A DNA stretch of 47,153 nucleotides from Anaerolineae bacterium (GTDB lineage: Bacteria > Chloroflexota > Anaerolineae > DRVO01): contig JABLXR010000034.1 of NCBI GenBank assembly GCA_013178015.1, positions 1-47,153 on the forward strand, given 5' to 3'. Under the pieces are notes generated by a model, which was given only the letters and a program-made list of their open reading frames with translations, did not search any database and was not told where the DNA came from. Shown here piece by piece: positions 8,876 through 33,970 of the stretch. Position 1 is the stretch's first letter. The number at the start of each line of letters is the position of its first letter. A program made the translations under genes and the position numbers.

Positions 8876-10801
8876 TCAGCCCTCCTGGTTGGGAAAGCGG
8901 CGGCCAGGCACGCGGAGGTCGCCCTGTCGGCGGGTGATGCCGGCGTCGTCAAGATCCGCCAGCAGGGCTAGGGTGGCCCGCCGGTTGCTGGAGAGCGCGT
9001 CGCGCACCTCGGCCACAGTCGCCCCTCCGGTGGCCCGAAGCAGGTCTGTGACCTTCCTCACGGCGGCGGCATACACTTCGCCGGCTATCAGCACGTCGTC
9101 CGGCAGCCTGCGCACCTCCCCCTGCGCCATCAGAGCATGCAGAAGGTCGTCCTCGGGGTCGGCGCCCAGATCGGCGAGAGTGACGCCACTGGCGCCCGCC
9201 TCGCGCAAGCGGGCGATCCACCGCCCAGCCCGAGCCCGTTCCTCCGAGGTCATCACCACCTGCCACTCAGGGAGCTTGACCCGGTCGCCCTCGGTCGCAA
9301 GCTGCCCGGTCGCCAGCCAACGGTCCAGGGCGGCGGCGAAGGGAGCTTGCCGCAGTCGGAGTCGGCGCCTTAGCTCTTCCCGCGGCATGCCGGGGCGCAG
9401 GTGGTGCTGCTCGTGATATCGGCTGACTTCCGCCAGAGCCTGCGCGGTCATGCGCTCCCAAGCCGAGACTTCCGCGACCACGCTCGACTCCGGCGACCCG
9501 CTGTCGGTAACCAAGACAGCCCGACCGTCACTCACCAGGCTGCGGGCCAACTCACCGGCCTGCGACACTGTCAGGTCCAGTGCCGCTCCCAGCGCCTCCA
9601 CCGTCATCAGCCCGGCCCGGTGTAGCTTCAGTACTGCCTGGCCGGCCTTGTCCGCAGCCTGCAACGCCGCCAGCCAGCCAAGCACCTCGGGGTCTCTCCG
9701 CCGGTGACGACGGCCCGGGTGTGCATCCACGATGGTGCCGCCCCCGATGGTCTCTGAGGGCGACAGGCTGCGCAGTATGAACCGATCGCCGTGGGTAAGC
9801 GGAGCCGGTCGGCTGCACAGCACTTGTGCCCACTGCTCCTCCCCCGGCGCCAACACGTCACCCTCCAGCAGGCGCAGGCGCGCCACGCAGTCGAAAGTAG
9901 TACAGAAGAAGTGGACCTCATCGGCATGAGACACGGGCCTTGATGCCTGTGGGAGCAGCCGAACCTGGACATCCAGAGTGGTGCTCGGGTGCATCCACCC
10001 GCCCACTACTAGGGCTTCCCCACGCTCTACCTCATCCTTCTGCACACCTACTACGTTGGCTGCCGTGCGACTGCCGGGGCTGGCTCGCTCCAGCGAGCGC
10101 CCATGCGTCTGCAGTGCCCGCACTCGCACCCGGGCCCCAGACGGCTGAATGGTGGCCTGGTCGCCCACCGAAAGAGTGCCCCCGGTCAGCGTCCCGGTTA
10201 CCACCGTTCCGTGACCCCGCAGGGTGAACACCCGGTCAATGGGCAAGCGCGGGCGGCCCTCGTCCGACGCCCAGGAGACCCGGGCCAGAGTACGGTCAAG
10301 CGCGGCCACCAACTCCGCGACGCCGGCTCCTGTGGTCGCGCTGACCACGTGGATGGGAGCTCCGGCTAAGGTGCTACCCATTAGCCCTTCGCGCACGTCT
10401 TCCCGGACGAGCTCCAGCCACTCCAGATCCACCAGGTCCGCCTTGGTTATGACAACCAGACCGGTCTCGACCCGCAGGAGATCGAGGATAGCCAGGTGCT
10501 CTCGGGTCTGAGGCATGATGCCTTCGTCGGCGGCCACAACAAGGAGGACGGCGTCTATGCCTCCCACTCCTGCCAGCATGTTGTGGACGAAGTCGCGGTG
10601 CCCAGGAACATCCACGATGCCGACGACCGTGCCACTCGGAAGCTCGAGCCACCCGAAGCCCAGATCTATGGTCATCTGGCGCTCCTGCTCCTCCCGGAGG
10701 CGGTCCGGATCCACTCCCGTCAGAGCCTTCACCAGCGTGGACTTGCCGTGATCCACGTGTCCGGCCGTAGCGACGACCCGATATCGCGCCTCGCTGGCCA
10801 C
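8876..10801 (-). CDS. selB: Selenocysteine-specific elongation factor SelB
   Basis: The 641-residue GTPase delivers Sec-tRNA to in-frame UGA codons marked by a SECIS hairpin. The GTPase motifs are GHVDHGKST (residues 14-22), MTIDLGFGW (switch II region), [13 protein letters not shown] and ITKADLVD. SelB differs from EF-Tu in the MTIDLGF motif, seen here, and in the C-terminal extension of about 270 residues after the beta-barrel domains that forms winged helices for SECIS RNA binding; the helices around 460-640 fit this. It starts with GTG eight bases after the coiled-coil gene. A candidate selenoprotein gene is in the same window at 28764-29768. selA, selC and selD are not present here. Confidence 0.94.
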
Positions 10802-26095: not shown

Positions 26096-27321
26096 TCGCC
26101 TGCTCCGGTCGCCTGAGTGAGGTAGCGCAGGGCACACCCAGCCAACAGGGCCGCCCCGATCGGCAGAGCGGCCTCGTCGACCTCAAAGGTGGGGCTGTGA
26201 CCCCAGGTCGGTTCCTGTCCCTCAGGGGTGACGCCCAGGCGAAAGAAGCAGCCCCGGCACTGTTGGGCCAGGAGGGAGAAGTCCTCCGCGCCCATGCTAG
26301 GCTCGATATCCCGCACTGCTCCGGCACCCAGCATCTTCTCCGCCACCTGCCGCACCAGATCCGTCAGAGCCCCATCGTTGACAGTGACCGGATATCCACG
26401 GCCTATGCCCACTTCGCAGGAGCCGCCCAAAGCCGCCGCTATTCCCGGAGCGATCTGCCGGATCTCGCTGTGGACTGCCTCGCGGGTGCGCTCGTCCAGC
26501 GTGCGGATGGTCCCCGTCATTACCACCGACTCGGGAATGATGTTCGCCCGCGTCCCGCCACTGATGGTCCCCAGGGAAACAACGGCGGGCGCTAGCGGGT
26601 CCACCGAGCGCGACACCACGCTCTGTAGGGAGCTCACGAGCTGCGAAGCGATGTAGATGGGATCGCGCGAGCGGTGCGGCTGAGCCGCATGAGCCCCACA
26701 CCCTTTCACCACCAACTGCAGCGAGTCTGAAGCCGCTTGCACCGCGCCAGCCCGTACCCCGACAGTTCCCGTAGGCAACTCGGTGATGACGTGCAGGCCA
26801 AATACCGCCGAGACCCCTTCCATGGCCCCGTCCTGGATCATCCGCGCTGCGCCAGAGAAGCCTTCGGAGTCGGCAGCCTCCTCGCTGGGCTGAAAGAGCA
26901 GTCGCACAGCCCCCGGTAACCGTCGGCCGCTCAGCAGACGAGCCGCCCCTAGAAGGATGGCGACGTGGGCGTCGTGCCCACAGGCGTGCATCAAGCCTGG
27001 CCGACGAGAAGCATAGGGGAGCGCGGTCGTCTCTTGGATGGGGAGAGCGTCCATGTCCGCCCTCAAAGCCACTACCGGCTCGGCGCTTCCTAGATCCGCC
27101 ACCACTCCCGTCCGGCCCACGCCCTCGCGGATACGCCACCCACCTCGTTTGCCGCCAGCACGATCCATCTGCCGCAACGACGAGACCACTAGCCGAGCCG
27201 TGCGAACCTCCTCGAAGCCCAGCTCGGGCCACTGGTGGATCTCCCGCCGCCACCGGACCAAGTCGCCAGCCATCTCCATCGCCTGCGACAGCAGGCCGTC
27301 GCTCCCCCTTGCAGCCGTCAT
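26092..27321 (-). CDS. M20D-family amidohydrolase/deacylase
   Basis: The 409-residue protein has the M20D layout: RREIHQWPELGFEE (about 26-39), VVALRADMDALPI, HACGHDAHVAILLGAA (metal ligands Cys-x-His and His, about 113-128) and LFQPSEEAADSEGFSGA, a dimerisation lid from about 190 to 305, and a final His in MGAEDFSLLAQ..GCFFRLG. Members hydrolyse N-acyl amino acids, including N-acetyl-diaminopimelate, hippurate and indole-acetyl conjugates. Its ATGA overlap with aspartate kinase suggests work on an aspartate-family amino acid, with N-acetyl-diaminopimelate deacetylase as one candidate; this is inference from position only. Confidence 0.88.
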   Translation of the reverse strand: MTAARGSDGLLSQAMEMAGDLVRWRREIHQWPELGFEEVRTARLVVSSLRQMDRAGGKRGGWRIREGVGRTGVVADLGSAEPVVALRADMDALPIQETTALPYASRRPGLMHACGHDAHVAILLGAARLLSGRRLPGAVRLLFQPSEEAADSEGFSGAARMIQDGAMEGVSAVFGLHVITELPTGTVGVRAGAVQAASDSLQLVVKGCGAHAAQPHRSRDPIYIASQLVSSLQSVVSRSVDPLAPAVVSLGTISGGTRANIIPESVVMTGTIRTLDERTREAVHSEIRQIAPGIAAALGGSCEVGIGRGYPVTVNDGALTDLVRQVAEKMLGAGAVRDIEPSMGAEDFSLLAQQCRGCFFRLGVTPEGQEPTWGHSPTFEVDEAALPIGAALLAGCALRYLTQATGAGD

Positions 27322-28736
27322 GAGTCCTCTCCCCTGCCCAGGCAGGAACGGTCGTGAACCGCCCGCACCGCCTCCTCTATGTCGGCTTCGTCCAGGACGA
27401 AAGAGAGGTTATGCTCTGAGGATCCCTGAGCGATGCATATCACATTTATGCCTCTGCTTCCCAGAGCGTCGAACACCCGGGCGGCTATCCCCGGCGTGCC
27501 TTTCATCGCGGCGCCGACCACCGCCACCACACCTACGTTGTTCTGAGCCCAGATGTCATCGATGTCGTGGCGAGCTTTCTCCACGGCGAACTCCGCTTCC
27601 AGTGCGGCAATGGCGCGCTCTGCCGAGGAGCCCGGAACCACAAAGCAGATGTTCTGCTCCGATGAGGACTGGGTGATCACCAGAACGCTTATCCCCTCCC
27701 GGGCCACAGCCGTGAAGACCTTGGCAGCGATGCCCGGAACGCCCAGCATCCCCCGGCCTTGCACCGTCACCAGGCTCAACCCTCTCACCGAGGTGATCCC
27801 GCGTACGCCCTGGGCCGAGGGCGCCGCCCTGGCCGTGATCAGGGTGCCGGGGTGGCTGGGGTTGAACGTGTTCTTGATGCGAATGGGAATGTCGGCAGCC
27901 TGTGCCGGCAGCATGGTCTTGGGGTGCAGCACCTTGGCGCCGAAGTATGCTAGCTCCGCTGCCTCCGCGTACGAGATCTCTGGCAAACTCCGGGCCTCCG
28001 GCACGATCCGAGGGTCTGCGGTTAGCACCCCATCAACGTCTGTCCATATCCAGATCTCCTCGGACGATAGAGCCGCTCCTATGAGTGAGCCCGAGTAGTC
28101 GCTGCCGCCTCGGCCGAGTGTAGTTGTCACACCAGCGCGGGTTGCCCCAAGGAATCCCGTCACCACAGGCACTGTGCCGGCCTCCAACAGAGGGAGCAGG
28201 GTGTCTCGGGTCGCCTGCCGCGTCTCCTCCAGGAGCGGGTTGGCGGAGCCGTAACAGGCGTCGGTGATCACTAGGCGCGTCGCCTCCACCGGGACCGAGT
28301 CGAAGCCCATACCCCGCAAGCACCCCGCCACGATGCGGCAGGACATGCGTTCGCCCAGGGCAATGATGGCGTCCAGGCCTCGAGCGGTAAGCTCGCCGAG
28401 GACGGACACGCTCTCGCACAGCCGCAGCAGCAGGTCCAGCAGAGACGACACCTCCTCCCCTATGGATTCGCGCTCGCCTTCGGGCACGCAGGCACTGATC
28501 GCCTGCAGATGTCGGGTCAGCAACTGCAGCCGCGTCGCCCGAAAAACGTCGGTCTGGCCCATCTCTGCCGATGTGGCGGACCGGATCAGGGCGTCGGTGA
28601 CGCCGCTCATCGCCGAGACAACGGCGACCACCGCGTGCCCCTCGTTGACGCTAGCTCCAATGAGCTCCGCCGTGCGTCGGATTGCCTCTCCATCACCGAC
28701 CGAAGTCCCGCCGAACTTCATGGTCCGGATGCGCAT
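27318..28736 (-). CDS. lysC: Aspartate kinase with two C-terminal ACT domains
   Basis: The start at ATG 28736 follows GGAGAGAGG; an upstream in-frame TTG lacks support. The 472-residue enzyme starts MRIRTMKFGGTSVGDG, and has GRGGSDYSGSLIGAAL, WTDVDGVLTADPRIVPEA and ISYAEAAELAYFGAKVLHPKTM, all typical of aspartokinase. Two ACT domains follow (about 320-470), with QSSSEQNICFVV and QGSSEHNLSFVL as the paired effector-site motifs. It catalyses the first step to lysine, threonine and methionine, and feedback by lysine and/or threonine is expected. It is an all-kinase form, with no fused homoserine dehydrogenase. Confidence 0.94.
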   Translation of the reverse strand: MRIRTMKFGGTSVGDGEAIRRTAELIGASVNEGHAVVAVVSAMSGVTDALIRSATSAEMGQTDVFRATRLQLLTRHLQAISACVPEGERESIGEEVSSLLDLLLRLCESVSVLGELTARGLDAIIALGERMSCRIVAGCLRGMGFDSVPVEATRLVITDACYGSANPLLEETRQATRDTLLPLLEAGTVPVVTGFLGATRAGVTTTLGRGGSDYSGSLIGAALSSEEIWIWTDVDGVLTADPRIVPEARSLPEISYAEAAELAYFGAKVLHPKTMLPAQAADIPIRIKNTFNPSHPGTLITARAAPSAQGVRGITSVRGLSLVTVQGRGMLGVPGIAAKVFTAVAREGISVLVITQSSSEQNICFVVPGSSAERAIAALEAEFAVEKARHDIDDIWAQNNVGVVAVVGAAMKGTPGIAARVFDALGSRGINVICIAQGSSEHNLSFVLDEADIEEAVRAVHDRSCLGRGEDS

Positions 28737-28763
28737 GCACCTCTCTCCACTCAACGCCTCGGC

Positions 28764-29768
28764 CTAGCCAGGCGTGCCAGTTGACTGAGCGTAGTACTCC
28801 TGCAGGTACCGGGTCTTCAGTGCCGTGATCTCGCCATCATCCATGATTTCCGGCCCCAGCGTCAGGCTCTTACTGGACACAGCCGGAGGGCTGCCCCGCT
28901 CCCCCAAAACCACCTCGGTGATGCCCAGGTACTCGCCCAGCCCCCCTGCCCGGACGAGAGCCACCGCCCCTTGCCAGGCCACTTCAGATTGCGGGGCTCC
29001 GGCTCCACCTCCGACAACCAAGTCTATCCTGGGGACCTGCTGTGCCAGCTCTCGTTCGGCTGCTGGTCCCAGGTTGGAGAGCACGATGACCAAGTGCGCT
29101 TGGTCGGCAAGCGCGGGAAAATGCTGCAGAGCCGCCGCGACCGGGTCGCCCACCTCGACCGGTTCCTCCATGGCTGCCCTGGGCGGCCCGGTGAGGCCAA
29201 GGACGGCGATCGTGGCCCCTTCCCGCTCGAGCAAGACGTATGGCGGGGCGAGCAGTTGCCCCTCGACCGTAAGGTTAGCGCTCACGATGGCGAAAGCGGC
29301 CTCCGCCATCCGTTCTCTCAGCACCTCGAGGCCTAGAGTTAGGTCCTGTGGCCCTAGCGCCATGGCATCGTACCCCATCAAGTTCATGGCCTCGACTGTG
29401 ATCCTGCCCTGGCTCCACTGGTTCAGGTCCTTTCGCGAGCCGGACGACAGAGTGTTGCCTGCGTCGAGCACCAGCCGGGCTACTCCGGCCTCGCTCCGTG
29501 CCCTAATCGCGCTGGCCCGCCGGGCCAGCCCCCCCTTGGGCGGGCTTCAGCCGCACGGGTCCACGTACCCCATCACGTCGTTGGTGTGGAAGATCAGCAG
29601 GCGGGTGCCTGCCGGAACCGCCCCTAGGGTGCGGGGCGTCACGGCCGCCGGCTGGTTCGCAGAAGTGACCTCCGCTGACGGTCTGCTCGACCGCATGCAG
29701 GCCGATAGCAGCGCTGTCATCAACAACGAGCCGCCCGAGCTCAGAAACGCGCGCTTGCTCCCGTCCAC
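28764..29768 (-). CDS. Candidate selenoprotein: lipoprotein of 5'-nucleotidase fold with Cys-Gly-Sec motif (UGA read-through)
   Basis: A GTG at 29768 follows GGAGG. The frame runs 73 codons to a TGA at 29547-29549, then stays open for another 260 codons to TAG at 28764. Both halves form one protein: a lipoprotein signal with lipobox LSAC (Cys24), the strand RLLIFHTNDVMGYVDPCG, the UGA as residue 74, then SPPKGGLARRA and DAGNTLSSG, as in 5'-nucleotidase-like proteins that carry PCGC...GGLARR. The UGA replaces the second Cys of that motif. Read as selenocysteine the product is 334 residues. The di-metal ligands are altered (NDVM for DxH, AGN for AGD, LGPQD for LGNHE), and no Cys other than 24 and 72 is present, so Cys72-Sec74 may be a redox pair. 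The C-terminal nucleotidase domain is absent. A true nonsense mutation is the alternative. Confidence 0.8.
29511..29546 (-). promoter_or_regulatory. Candidate bacterial SECIS element
   Basis: Directly after the UGA (29547-29549) the minus strand holds an uninterrupted eight-pair stem, GCTGGCCC (29522-29529) with GGGCCAGC (29511-29518), closing a three-base loop GGC. The loop starts 26 bases after the UGA and its first two bases are G. These are the distance and loop features I know for bacterial SECIS hairpins. The element is within the coding frame, as in bacteria. Confidence 0.65.
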
Positions 29769-29779
29769 TAGCTGACCTC

Positions 29780-30817
29780 CTACCTCTGCCTAGATCTCCT
29801 CGAGGCGGCCACCGCCGCCAGACCGGCGAAGCCCGCGGCGGCCAGCAACAGCCCCAAACCACCTCCACCAGACACCGCCGCCACCTCAACTTCCGGCGTC
29901 ACGTACAGAGCAGGCGGCAAGGTGGCCGCAGCGCTGGCCAGCACCCACACTTGCGGCGAGGGCCTGGGCGTGGCGGTCGGCGGCAGGGACGGCGCCGTCT
30001 GGCTTCGCCGCGGGCCCGCAGTCTGCGTCGCTGTCACGACGGCCTCAGGTGTTGCCGTCGAAGTGGTGGTGGGCGGCGACGTCTCGCTTGGCACAGGTGA
30101 TCCACTCGGCGAAGGTGGCATCTCCGGTGCCTGCGTCGAGGGCGAGACGGGTTCCGACGTGGCCGTGGGCGCCAGAGCCAGAGTGGCCTGAGGCTCCATC
30201 ACCGGCACCGACTCGTCCCGCACCAGGCTGACCGCGTCCAGGAAGGCCTGATCCGCTCCGTACGTCCGTGGGTTGTTCACCCGAACGAACACGGTGATCC
30301 GATCCGACTCTGCCACCGCACGCGCCCGCAACTCCGGGTTGGTGCGCTTCTTCTCCCACACTTCCGGGCTCCACACCACCGAAGGCGACTGCGGGTCCGT
30401 GCCACCCCAGGGGTCTATTCCCACGGCCCGGCCCATCTCCGGGCCCTCCGACTGGAAGACGGCCCAGCCGATGAAGGCCTCGTAGGTTGCGCCCAACTCC
30501 ACCCCGCTCACCTCCTGGTAGATGCCAGCAACGAAGCCCTCCCCGTCGCTCCAGATCCTGAGCGCTGGTTGCTTGGGAGTATCCGAGGCGGCGTCGAACG
30601 CCGGGTGCCCAGCGATCACGAACGGCCACCAGCCCGTAGGCACCTCGCCGCCAGGAGCGGCGCCGAAGGTGTCGAACTGGCAGTTGAAGGTCAAGTTGGC
30701 GGGGCTCTCGCAGGGGTCCTCGGCCGCCGCACCGCACCACCAGGCGATAGCCGCCACGGCGACCACCAGGAGGACCAGCCCAGACCTAGCTACGAAGGTT
30801 CCAGGCATCGCTCTCAT
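29780..30817 (-). CDS. Secreted, cell-surface anchored protein with Ser/Thr/Pro-rich stalk
   Basis: The start is uncertain: ATG 30817 or 30808 places the hydrophobic signal (VARSGLVLLVVAVAAIAWW) near the N-terminus, while the longest frame begins at 30859 inside lipM. After signal cleavage a globular domain of about 180 residues follows, starting DPCESPANLTFNCQFD and containing ATYEAFIGWAVFQ and ITVFVRVNNPRTYGADQAFLDAVSLV, a beta-sandwich (carbohydrate-binding-like) pattern. Then comes a ~100-residue linker rich in Pro, Thr and Ser, and a C-terminal Gly-rich transmembrane segment with a basic end (SRRSRQR). That is the architecture of a surface protein held by a C-terminal anchor. It is 11 bases upstream of the candidate selenoprotein, also exported. 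Confidence 0.65.
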   Translation of the reverse strand: MRAMPGTFVARSGLVLLVVAVAAIAWWCGAAAEDPCESPANLTFNCQFDTFGAAPGGEVPTGWWPFVIAGHPAFDAASDTPKQPALRIWSDGEGFVAGIYQEVSGVELGATYEAFIGWAVFQSEGPEMGRAVGIDPWGGTDPQSPSVVWSPEVWEKKRTNPELRARAVAESDRITVFVRVNNPRTYGADQAFLDAVSLVRDESVPVMEPQATLALAPTATSEPVSPSTQAPEMPPSPSGSPVPSETSPPTTTSTATPEAVVTATQTAGPRRSQTAPSLPPTATPRPSPQVWVLASAAATLPPALYVTPEVEVAAVSGGGGLGLLLAAAGFAGLAAVAASRRSRQR

Positions 30818-31601
30818 ATTTGGTCTGGGCGAGCCCCGAAGCGCGTCTGAGCTCGTCACGGGTCAGCGGAGCCTCTTCCCAGGTGATGCCCAGGGTTAGG
30901 GCCAGACCCCGAGCCAGCGCGTCCACCACTTCGTCGAAGCCAGCGGTGCGCCCCAGGGCCTGCGCCACCGTGGCAGCACGCTGCCGCAGCAAATCCCGGG
31001 CCCGTTCCCTCTCCTCCTTGGGCAGCTTCAGGAAATCCACCACCTCCCCTACGTCGCCCGAGAGAGGAATGGATCCGTGCTGCAAGACCCCATCGCCGCG
31101 TCTCCACTGGGCGCTCCCCACCAACTTGCGGCCGGCCGCCGTGAGCTCGTACCGCGACGGGGCATCGAAGCAGGCGGCGGAGGTGCCTCCCACCGTCACG
31201 GCGTTCCGCTCGTCCGACACCGGAAGGCCCAGTAGCGATAGCCCGCACCGAAACCCGGCGCTAAGCCGCCGGTACGACTCCAGAACTCCCCCGGCCATCC
31301 GCCAGTCCGCCGCCGGTGCGGCGATGCAGTAGGTCACCTCGTCGCGGTGCAGCACGGCGCGACCGCCACTGGGGCGCCGGACGAACCCCCAGCCTCGGCG
31401 GGCCAGGGCGGCGAGATCGAACCCCTGCGCCGTCTGCGAATAGCCGATGCTCAAGCACGTAGGTCGCCACCGATAGAATCGCAACGTGGGCGGTGAGTCG
31501 CCTCGTTCTGCCGACTCCAGAACGGCTTCGTCCAGACCCATGTTCATGGCCCCAGAGAACTCCCCATCCCGGATCAGCCGCCAGCAAGCGTGGTCAGACA
31601 A
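30786..31601 (-). CDS. lipM: Octanoyltransferase LipM (biotin/lipoate ligase fold)
   Basis: The 271-residue protein starts with TTG overlapping the radical SAM gene by eight bases. Motifs of the family: LRFYRWRPTCLSIGYSQ (about 41-57), RRPSGGRAVLHRDEVTYC (about 75-92), ACFDAPSRYELTAAGRKLVGSAQWRR (about 141-166) and VLQHGSIPL. The conserved Cys in ACFDAPS matches the acyl-thioester cysteine of LipM, which distinguishes it from lipoate ligase LplA and from LipB. LipM moves octanoate from acyl carrier protein to a lipoyl domain. Together with the adjacent radical SAM protein and dihydrolipoyl dehydrogenase, this is a lipoyl-cofactor cluster. Confidence 0.85.
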   Translation of the reverse strand: MSDHACWRLIRDGEFSGAMNMGLDEAVLESAERGDSPPTLRFYRWRPTCLSIGYSQTAQGFDLAALARRGWGFVRRPSGGRAVLHRDEVTYCIAAPAADWRMAGGVLESYRRLSAGFRCGLSLLGLPVSDERNAVTVGGTSAACFDAPSRYELTAAGRKLVGSAQWRRGDGVLQHGSIPLSGDVGEVVDFLKLPKEERERARDLLRQRAATVAQALGRTAGFDEVVDALARGLALTLGITWEEAPLTRDELRRASGLAQTKYESDAWNLRS

Positions 31602-32556
31602 CGCCGGCCTCGACCAGTTCTTTCAGTTGCGCCAGCCCGCTCGTCAACATAGCTTCGCGGGTCTCCTCCTGGGTCAGAGGGCGCGGGTAGTTGTAGAGGT
31701 CGCCGCCCGGGCGCTCATTGTAGTAGGGCCGGTTGCAGCCAGGGCAGCCGGATGTCTGGAACGCCATTCCATCGAGGAGGTGGCCGGCGGCCCGCTCCGG
31801 CAGGCGAGCCAGACGCCCCTCAGCATCGAAATCGCAATCGCCTGCTCGCACCACTCCGAGCGCGATCAGGTAAGCAGCAATCTGCACCCGGCGATAGCTG
31901 GGTAGCGGGGGCTGCCCGCTTCCGGCGAGGCGAGTTCCGGGCACCGGGCAGAAGGCGAACAGCCCCACCGTTGCCCCCAAGTCAGCGTAGAGCTGGGCCG
32001 CTTCCACCAACTCCTTCTCGCTCTCCCCTAGGCCGGCAATGAGGTGAACGGCAAGCCGCCCCGGGTGGTTGTGCGCGACGTGCTCGATCAGGTCGCGATA
32101 GAGCCGCCATCCGCCGCCCTTGACGGCGCCAAAGATCGCCGCGGTGGCAGCGTCCACGCCGAACCCGATGTGATCCACGCCCGCCTCGATCAATGCGTCA
32201 GCGGCCCGCGGAGTCGGGGGCAAAACCGACACATCCACCGGCAGCGCCAGGGCCTGCTTCAGCTCGCCAACGAGGGCGACAAGCCGATCGAAGGCGCCGG
32301 CCGCGGCAGTGCATTGCAGACACACCCTCTGGAACGCGCCCTCGCGCTCTCTCAGCGCATGCAGAACGTCCCGGACGGGGAAAGGGGGCCAGGAGACGCG
32401 GGAGAGCATGTCTTCGGGGCCCGTGCTGGAGCGTGCCTGAGCGCAGAAGCCGCAATCCCGCTCACAGCGCCCGCCGACCATCAGGTACGCCGTCGTGGGC
32501 GCTACTGTCAGCGGTATCCGGCACAATTCCAGCACGCTCGCGGTGCCCGCGGACAC
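31594..32556 (-). CDS. Radical SAM protein, probable alternative lipoyl synthase subunit (LipS-like)
   Basis: The GTG start lies 13 bases after lpd. The radical SAM cluster motif is C-x3-C-x2-C (CERDCGFCAQ, Cys31, 35 and 38). The barrel follows with VCLQCTAAAG, VDVSVLPPTP, GVDHIGFGVDAA and HLIAGLGESEKELVEAA. The C-terminus has SGCPGCNRPYYNERPGGDLYNYPRPLT, a cysteine-containing tail that could bind an auxiliary cluster. Canonical LipA has different N- and C-terminal cysteine motifs and is not what is seen here. Placement between lpd and lipM supports sulfur insertion into octanoyl groups, as by LipS1/LipS2. Only one such gene is present, so the partner, if needed, is elsewhere. Confidence 0.7.
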   Translation of the reverse strand: MSAGTASVLELCRIPLTVAPTTAYLMVGGRCERDCGFCAQARSSTGPEDMLSRVSWPPFPVRDVLHALREREGAFQRVCLQCTAAAGAFDRLVALVGELKQALALPVDVSVLPPTPRAADALIEAGVDHIGFGVDAATAAIFGAVKGGGWRLYRDLIEHVAHNHPGRLAVHLIAGLGESEKELVEAAQLYADLGATVGLFAFCPVPGTRLAGSGQPPLPSYRRVQIAAYLIALGVVRAGDCDFDAEGRLARLPERAAGHLLDGMAFQTSGCPGCNRPYYNERPGGDLYNYPRPLTQEETREAMLTSGLAQLKELVEAGVV

Positions 32557-32569
32557 CCCGACGCGCCGC

Positions 32570-33970
32570 TCAGACTCGGCGATAGTGGATCCCCTCCCCG
32601 CAGACGGCCGCCGTTGCCGCCTCCATCAGGCATTCCGATAGCGTCGGGTGCTGGTGCATAGTACTGGCCAGGTCGGATGCGCTTAGACCAGCTTTCACCG
32701 CCAGCGCCCCTTCGCCGATCAGCTCACTGGCGTGAGCCCCCATCATGTGCACGCCCAAGACCCGCCCCGTCTCGCTGTCGTACACTAGCCGGACTAGGCC
32801 CTCCTCCTCGCCCATGGTCAGTGCCCGCCCGCTAGCCGATAGCGGGAAACGAGCCACGGCCGGGCTGTAACCGGCAGCCTTGGCCTCGGCCTCTGTCAGG
32901 CCGACTCCGGCGATCTCTGGGTCAGTGAAGACGCAGTTGGGGACCGCCAGGTAGTCTATCTCCCTGTCCCCTCCCAGAGCGTTCTCGGCCGCTACCATGC
33001 CTTCGTGTGAGGCGACGTGGGCCAGCATCCAGCCTCCTACTACGTCACCAGCGGCGTATATGCCGGGCACGCTGGTGCGCAGGCGCGAGTCCACCCGGAT
33101 GAAGCCACCGCCGTCCGTCTCTACGCCTACCTCCTCCAGCCCCAGGCCCTGCGTCACCGGAGTCTGGCCCGTTGCTAGGAGGATGGCGTCGGCGTCCACG
33201 TGGGCTGTCTGGCCGTGGGCGCTATAGTGCAGCCTGAGCCTCCCTTCCACGGTCTCGATGCGATCGAACTCGAGGCCAACCGTGATACTCAGTCCCCTGC
33301 GCGCGGCCAGGGAGCGATACCGGCGGGCCAACTGGGGATCTACCGACTTGAGGAAAGTGCGCCGGCCCAAAACCGTGACCTGGCTACCCAGGTGGTGGAA
33401 GATGGTGGCCATTTCCATGCCCACCACGCTAGCGCCAACCACGACCAGCCGCCGCGGCAGCTCCTGCAGCCCAAGCAGCTGACGCGAGTCGAGCACGCCG
33501 GGCAGCTCGATGCCCGGCAGCGGCGGGCGCGCAGCCACCGAGCCGGTAGCGATCAGCGCGCTGCTGAATGATAGCTCCCTCGTTGAGCTGTCCGGTAGCC
33601 GCACCGCTGCCCGATCGGGAGCCACCAGGCGAGCTTCACCTGCCACCACCTCGACGCCCCGGGCATCCAGCAGCTCGCGGACCGATCCCACGATGCGAGA
33701 GACAATGGCATCCTTGCGTGCCATCACCGCCGCGAAGTCGGCCCGGACGCTGCCTTCGACGACCAGTCCATACCGGCTCGCCTCTCGCATCTTCCGGAAG
33801 AGGGTGGCGCTCTCCACCAGGGCCTTGGTGGGGATACAGCCACGGTTCAGGCACGTCCCCCCTATGCACTCCTTCTCAATCAGCGCCACCCGACCGCCCA
33901 ACTGGCTGGCCCGGATGGCGGCCACGTATCCCGCCGGCCCCGCTCCGATCACTACGAAGTCATAACGCAT
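32570..33970 (-). CDS. lpdA: Dihydrolipoyl dehydrogenase
   Basis: The 466-residue flavoprotein has the FAD motif VIGAGPAGYVAAIRASQLG (residues 7-25), the redox-active disulfide GGTCLNRGCIPTKALV (about 38-53), the NAD motif VVVGASVVGMEMATIFHHLG (about 175-194), the second FAD motif VPGIYAAGDVVGG and the C-terminal HQHPTLSECLMEA with the catalytic His-Glu pair. It re-oxidises dihydrolipoyl groups of 2-oxoacid dehydrogenases or the glycine cleavage system. No E1/E2 or gcv genes are adjacent; the neighbours are lipoyl-attachment genes. It has its own promoter. Confidence 0.93.
   Translation of the reverse strand: MRYDFVVIGAGPAGYVAAIRASQLGGRVALIEKECIGGTCLNRGCIPTKALVESATLFRKMREASRYGLVVEGSVRADFAAVMARKDAIVSRIVGSVRELLDARGVEVVAGEARLVAPDRAAVRLPDSSTRELSFSSALIATGSVAARPPLPGIELPGVLDSRQLLGLQELPRRLVVVGASVVGMEMATIFHHLGSQVTVLGRRTFLKSVDPQLARRYRSLAARRGLSITVGLEFDRIETVEGRLRLHYSAHGQTAHVDADAILLATGQTPVTQGLGLEEVGVETDGGGFIRVDSRLRTSVPGIYAAGDVVGGWMLAHVASHEGMVAAENALGGDREIDYLAVPNCVFTDPEIAGVGLTEAEAKAAGYSPAVARFPLSASGRALTMGEEEGLVRLVYDSETGRVLGVHMMGAHASELIGEGALAVKAGLSASDLASTMHQHPTLSECLMEAATAAVCGEGIHYRRV

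Follow-up and report, generated by a model that had tools for sequence, protein, structure and literature searches.

The DNA considered here (the window, 47,153 nucleotides in length) is one of the 97 contigs (contig 34) of a draft genome of 4.57 Mb, and carries on its minus strand an UshA-like selenoprotein gene (28764-29768), delimited by its reading frame, by its homologues and by a match to the NCBIfam model NF041198. The frame opens with a GTG at 29768, with GGAGG immediately on its 5' side, and extends to a TAG (28766-28764), its sole internal stop being a TGA at 29549-29547 (codon 74). As had been described in an earlier note on this DNA, two minus-strand frames of 73 and 260 codons are in phase and split only by this TGA, and similarity to one family runs across the junction, the match to NF041198 covering residues 55-291. 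Read through with selenocysteine (Sec), the product has 334 residues, and its N terminus resembles a lipoprotein signal (LLSAC, with Cys24 in the lipobox), making it a probable lipoprotein; the crude motif used for lipoprotein prediction finds a lipobox-type sequence in 41 of 66 members of the family. Apart from Cys24, the only Cys or Sec residues of the window protein (P0001) are those at positions 72 and 74, in the motif P-C72-G-U74 (PCG-U).

The gene is preceded by one for an exported protein (29780-30859, minus strand) that has no family match and displays a Ser/Thr/Pro-rich stalk, a C-terminal membrane segment and a basic tail, and is followed by an aspartate kinase gene (27318-28754, minus strand) recognized by a profile match. 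When neighbourhoods were compared across 24 loci, the stalk-like protein adjoined the selenoprotein gene in three of them (within the genus and in one further family) and the aspartate kinase in five, and no conserved redox partner was found beside the gene. The upstream row (30786-33970, minus strand) also includes a lipoate ligase-like protein, a LipS2-type lipoyl synthase (NF053743, 320 bits for a cut-off of 270) and a dihydrolipoyl dehydrogenase; as these lipoate genes are not conserved as neighbours in the 24 loci, no link to them is drawn.

When homologues were sought in 199 whole genomes from relatives, a distinct group of matches was obtained, composed of reading frames of about 320-500 codons interrupted by an in-frame TGA, and about 60 homologues from 47 of these genomes bear UGA at the very same column. 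The homologues are mostly 34-46% identical to the window protein (about 60% within the genus, mostly 34-44% elsewhere), and the frame is kept for about 255 residues past the UGA. As the protein similarity crosses the UGA, and the TGA recurs in the same column in homologues of 47 genomes, its presence in the frame is not due to chance. The usual pattern at the site is PCGU, four residues, then GG(L/V/M)ARRA, and in most members the mature part contains one Cys and one Sec, which form the CxU pair. Among the aligned sequences, 61 have UGA at the column of residue 74, and a single homologue (L074, from genome G004) has Cys there instead, in the context PCAC (PCACDPAVGGLARR); in all homologues read that carry a stop here, that stop is UGA. 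A maximum-likelihood tree separates 20 ordinary proteins, as a single group with strong support (100/99), from every UGA member, and places the Cys form L074 among the latter. Outside of these genomes, the viral contigs scanned contained no relatives, and the best matches of a plasmid search were ordinary 5'-nucleotidases.

Some members depart from the usual motif, with the site variants CGGU, CGVU, CNTU and PATU, as well as U-G-U and U-U in genome G125, which has seven family matches. Two paralogues of that genome, L066:1634-2563 (+) and L093:1553-2425 (-), have the Cys of the CxU motif also replaced by UGA (TGA-GGC-TGA), or present TGA-TGA without Cys, and are possibly a diselenide version of the protein, or copies in early decay. 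Forms with a CxxU motif occur in the same branch (CGVU in L094 of genome G019, CNTU in L108/L159 of genome G208) and are paired in the tree (87/88); L094 retains the His of HTNDTHG.

The insertion of Sec in bacteria requires selA, selB, selD and tRNA-Sec, and all four are present in the genome of the window. The gene for the selenocysteine-specific elongation factor selB lies in the window itself (8876-10801, minus strand; TIGR00475, 336.6 bits for a cut-off of 242.25), as the earlier note had stated, and its proposal to look for selA, selC and selD elsewhere in the genome was borne out by the finding of selA (536 bits), of a tRNA-Sec with a UCA anticodon (76.7 bits for a cut-off of 47; named tRNA-SeC, anticodon TCA, by ARAGORN) and of selD (342 bits). 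The latter (L015) has one in-frame TGA of its own, in the well-known motif GUAAK (G-U-AAK), and is a second selenoprotein gene of the same genome and a positive control. Among the 47 genomes with UGA members, selB exceeds its cut-off in 43, and in the remaining four (G001, G014, G063 and G125) selA and tRNA-Sec exceed theirs. Co-occurrence with selB is by itself weak support, because selB is common anyway in the genomes of relatives (160 out of 199 above cut-off).

Downstream of the UGA, a SECIS-like hairpin (29511-29529, minus strand) is formed by the stem GCUGGCCC / GGGCCAGC and a 3-nt loop (GGC), as delineated by an alignment of 61 sequences, by covariation and by folding. These 61 sequences have constant spacing and are gap-free after the UGA, so that columns can be numbered from the T of TGA, the hairpin occupying columns 21-39. 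The stem comprises eight pairs (columns 21-28 with 32-39), begins 17 nt past the UGA, and has at loop column 29, the first G of the loop, a G in all aligned sequences; the family thus displays what is expected of a bacterial SECIS, namely a stem-loop soon after the UGA with a G in a small apical loop. Over the whole stem, 88.3% of cells are paired, a value matched by none of 500 shuffles, and 37 cells carry double changes versus 12.6 in shuffles (0/500), while sliding the stem partner abolishes the covariation signal. Pairs 24-36 and 27-33 are paired in 61 of 61 sequences, with double changes in 8 and 14 of them, respectively, and are the informative ones, because both of their sides fall on third codon positions and several other pairs are fixed by the protein. 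In the Cys homologue L074 (one sequence only), a G stands opposite a G at 24-36, a pair that is intact in all UGA sequences. Compared with synonymous-codon shuffles of the same peptide, the fold at this locus has a z of -3.43, and 65 UGA sequences average -1.69, whereas compared with dinucleotide shuffles the hairpin of the window is unremarkable for its composition (z -0.98), so that the case for the hairpin is made by the family and not by one sequence. Neither the window nor the UGA region had any match in Rfam, by gathering threshold or by E-value, a blank that does not speak against a SECIS of the bacterial type.

Taken together, the Sec machinery, the conserved UGA, the Cys homologue and the covarying hairpin strongly support the earlier proposal that residue 74 is Sec, and we assign a probability of about 0.95 to the reading of this locus as a real selenoprotein gene. 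A pseudogene or a sequencing error, with a nonsense TGA disrupting a 5'-nucleotidase-like gene, might be suspected in a draft assembly, where one stop easily arises by error, and for a joined protein that remains below every Pfam and NCBIfam cut-off, but is ruled out for practical purposes by a TGA conserved at the same column in sequences this divergent, by the long frame maintained beyond it and by the covarying hairpin. Could the UGA nevertheless be subject to plain readthrough, or be decoded as a different residue (Trp, for instance, or Cys, via a near-cognate tRNA)? Here too conservation decides against it, and this reading is highly improbable in a genome with a complete Sec system and a UGA-containing selD, in a family whose Sec column aligns with the Cys of L074, where the stop is UGA in every stop-bearing member read and is followed by a hairpin that covaries.

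How does this protein relate to selenoproteins already described? The earlier note suggested that the family is absent from lists of bacterial selenoproteins, which proved wrong: UshA-like selenoproteins (COG0737, with a CxU motif) were listed in the 2008 GOS selenoproteome (PMC2398784), are found again in reviews of 2022 and 2026 (PMC9312934 and PMC13188914), and are represented in NCBIfam by two models, NF041198 (UshA_like_PCGU) and NF049981 (UshA_like_Sel_2). The joined protein has no named match above any cut-off in Pfam or NCBIfam. Its best NCBIfam match is NF041198 (151.5 bits for a cut-off of 275), a model that also matches all 52 aligned members, and whose cut-off is reached in none of 400 Chloroflexota genomes; the best E-values among the 52 members (2.7e-62 for NF041198 and 2.1e-19 for NF049981) imply scores below the cut-offs of both models. 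With NF041198, the window protein shares the superfamily domain, the PCG-U motif and the Cys two residues before Sec, but it differs by its size, as its 334 residues match only positions 22-270 of a 519-position model (the comparison being made via the profile only). It is comparable in length to NF049981 (262 positions), another UshA-like selenoprotein model, which has in contrast a CxxU motif instead of CxU and is matched with 62 bits for a cut-off of 140. On these sequence comparisons, the window protein is assigned to the known UshA-like selenoprotein kind, and represents a short, single-domain Chloroflexota branch lying outside current models.

An AlphaFold2 model of the window protein (pLDDT 95.1, pTM 0.93) superposes onto the N-terminal metallophosphatase domain of UshA, CD73, SoxB and NadN with Z scores of 33-36 over at least 270 residues, and the profile search agrees with this match. 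The calcineurin-like metallophosphatase fold is recovered across the whole domain, and the window protein is predicted with high confidence to correspond to the N-terminal domain of UshA/CD73/SoxB. It resembles in this respect the 5'-nucleotidases UshA and CD73 (1ush and 4h2i, Z about 36), but it stops after this first domain, lacking their C-terminal substrate-binding domain, and has a CGU motif in place of metal ligands. It similarly resembles the thiosulfohydrolase SoxB (2wdc, Z 35.3), whose model TIGR04486 matches all 52 members (E < 1e-10), but scores only 52 bits against it for a cut-off of 550, and lacks the metal ligands and the C-terminal domain of this enzyme as well. The ligand set of active UshA-type enzymes (HTNDxHG, DxGD, GNHE, H and GHxH) is absent as a whole, with only Asp64 kept among the eight aligned metal-site positions of the window protein (DMNPQNGG). 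The same holds more broadly, as no more than three of the eight positions are kept in 61 of 64 family members, while all eight are kept in 12 of 16 ordinary relatives. None of the 64 members has the Asn or the His of GNHE (columns of Asn140 and His141); the His of HxG (His66) is found in two, those of GHxH in three (His255) and one (His257), and the bridging Asp (Asp105) in 23. Judging from the aligned residues, the dinuclear metal site is shown to be lost throughout the short Chloroflexota branch.

Would the protein still be a working phosphohydrolase, in which Sec replaces a lost metal ligand or acts as a nucleophile in the former nucleotidase site? The fold shared with UshA, CD73 and SoxB, the position of the CGU loop immediately after the first metal-binding strand, and the retention of Asp64 in 62 of 64 members and of His at the His232 column in 32 of 64, speak in its favour. 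They are nevertheless outweighed by the near-complete disappearance of the other ligands and by the missing substrate-binding domain, which make this an improbable reading, and metal-dependent hydrolase activity of the window protein is considered unlikely on the residues that it retains. The description of the gene as 5'-nucleotidase-like, given in the earlier note, accordingly stands for the fold and probably not for the activity.

The reading that we favour instead, with some reservation, is that of an exported selenenylsulfide/thiol redox protein built on a dead 5'-nucleotidase fold. SelB and tRNA-Sec would decode the UGA of codon 74 as Sec, steered by the downstream hairpin, a step that is well supported at the sequence level; the product, judging from its N terminus, would be exported as a lipoprotein. 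A redox role of the Cys72-Sec74 pair is suggested by the loss of the metal site, together with the fact that this CxU pair contributes the sole Cys and Sec residues outside the lipobox in most members. A selenenylsulfide between Cys72 and Sec74 would then perform extracytoplasmic thiol/selenol redox chemistry, and the former substrate cleft, once used for phosphate esters, may serve as a binding scaffold. Alternatively, rather than acting in redox chemistry, the protein may retain part of its metal site, or an altered one, or may serve only in binding. More tentatively, and at somewhat less than even odds, the redox reading may be extended to a large, unnamed Chloroflexota branch, often present in several copies, in which a dead 5'-nucleotidase fold would have become an extracytoplasmic CxU redox lipoprotein, with possible diselenide forms among the copies of G125.

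As its members score below the cut-offs of the models for UshA-like selenoproteins, this selenoprotein, which is common in uncultured Anaerolineae, has probably been split into two broken fragments by annotation, an expectation drawn from these scores, and such split annotation would lead to selenium use in Chloroflexota being undercounted. The branch also illustrates cleanly how a hydrolase fold can lose its metals and keep a Cys/Sec pair, a combination through which the function of UshA-like selenoproteins becomes testable.
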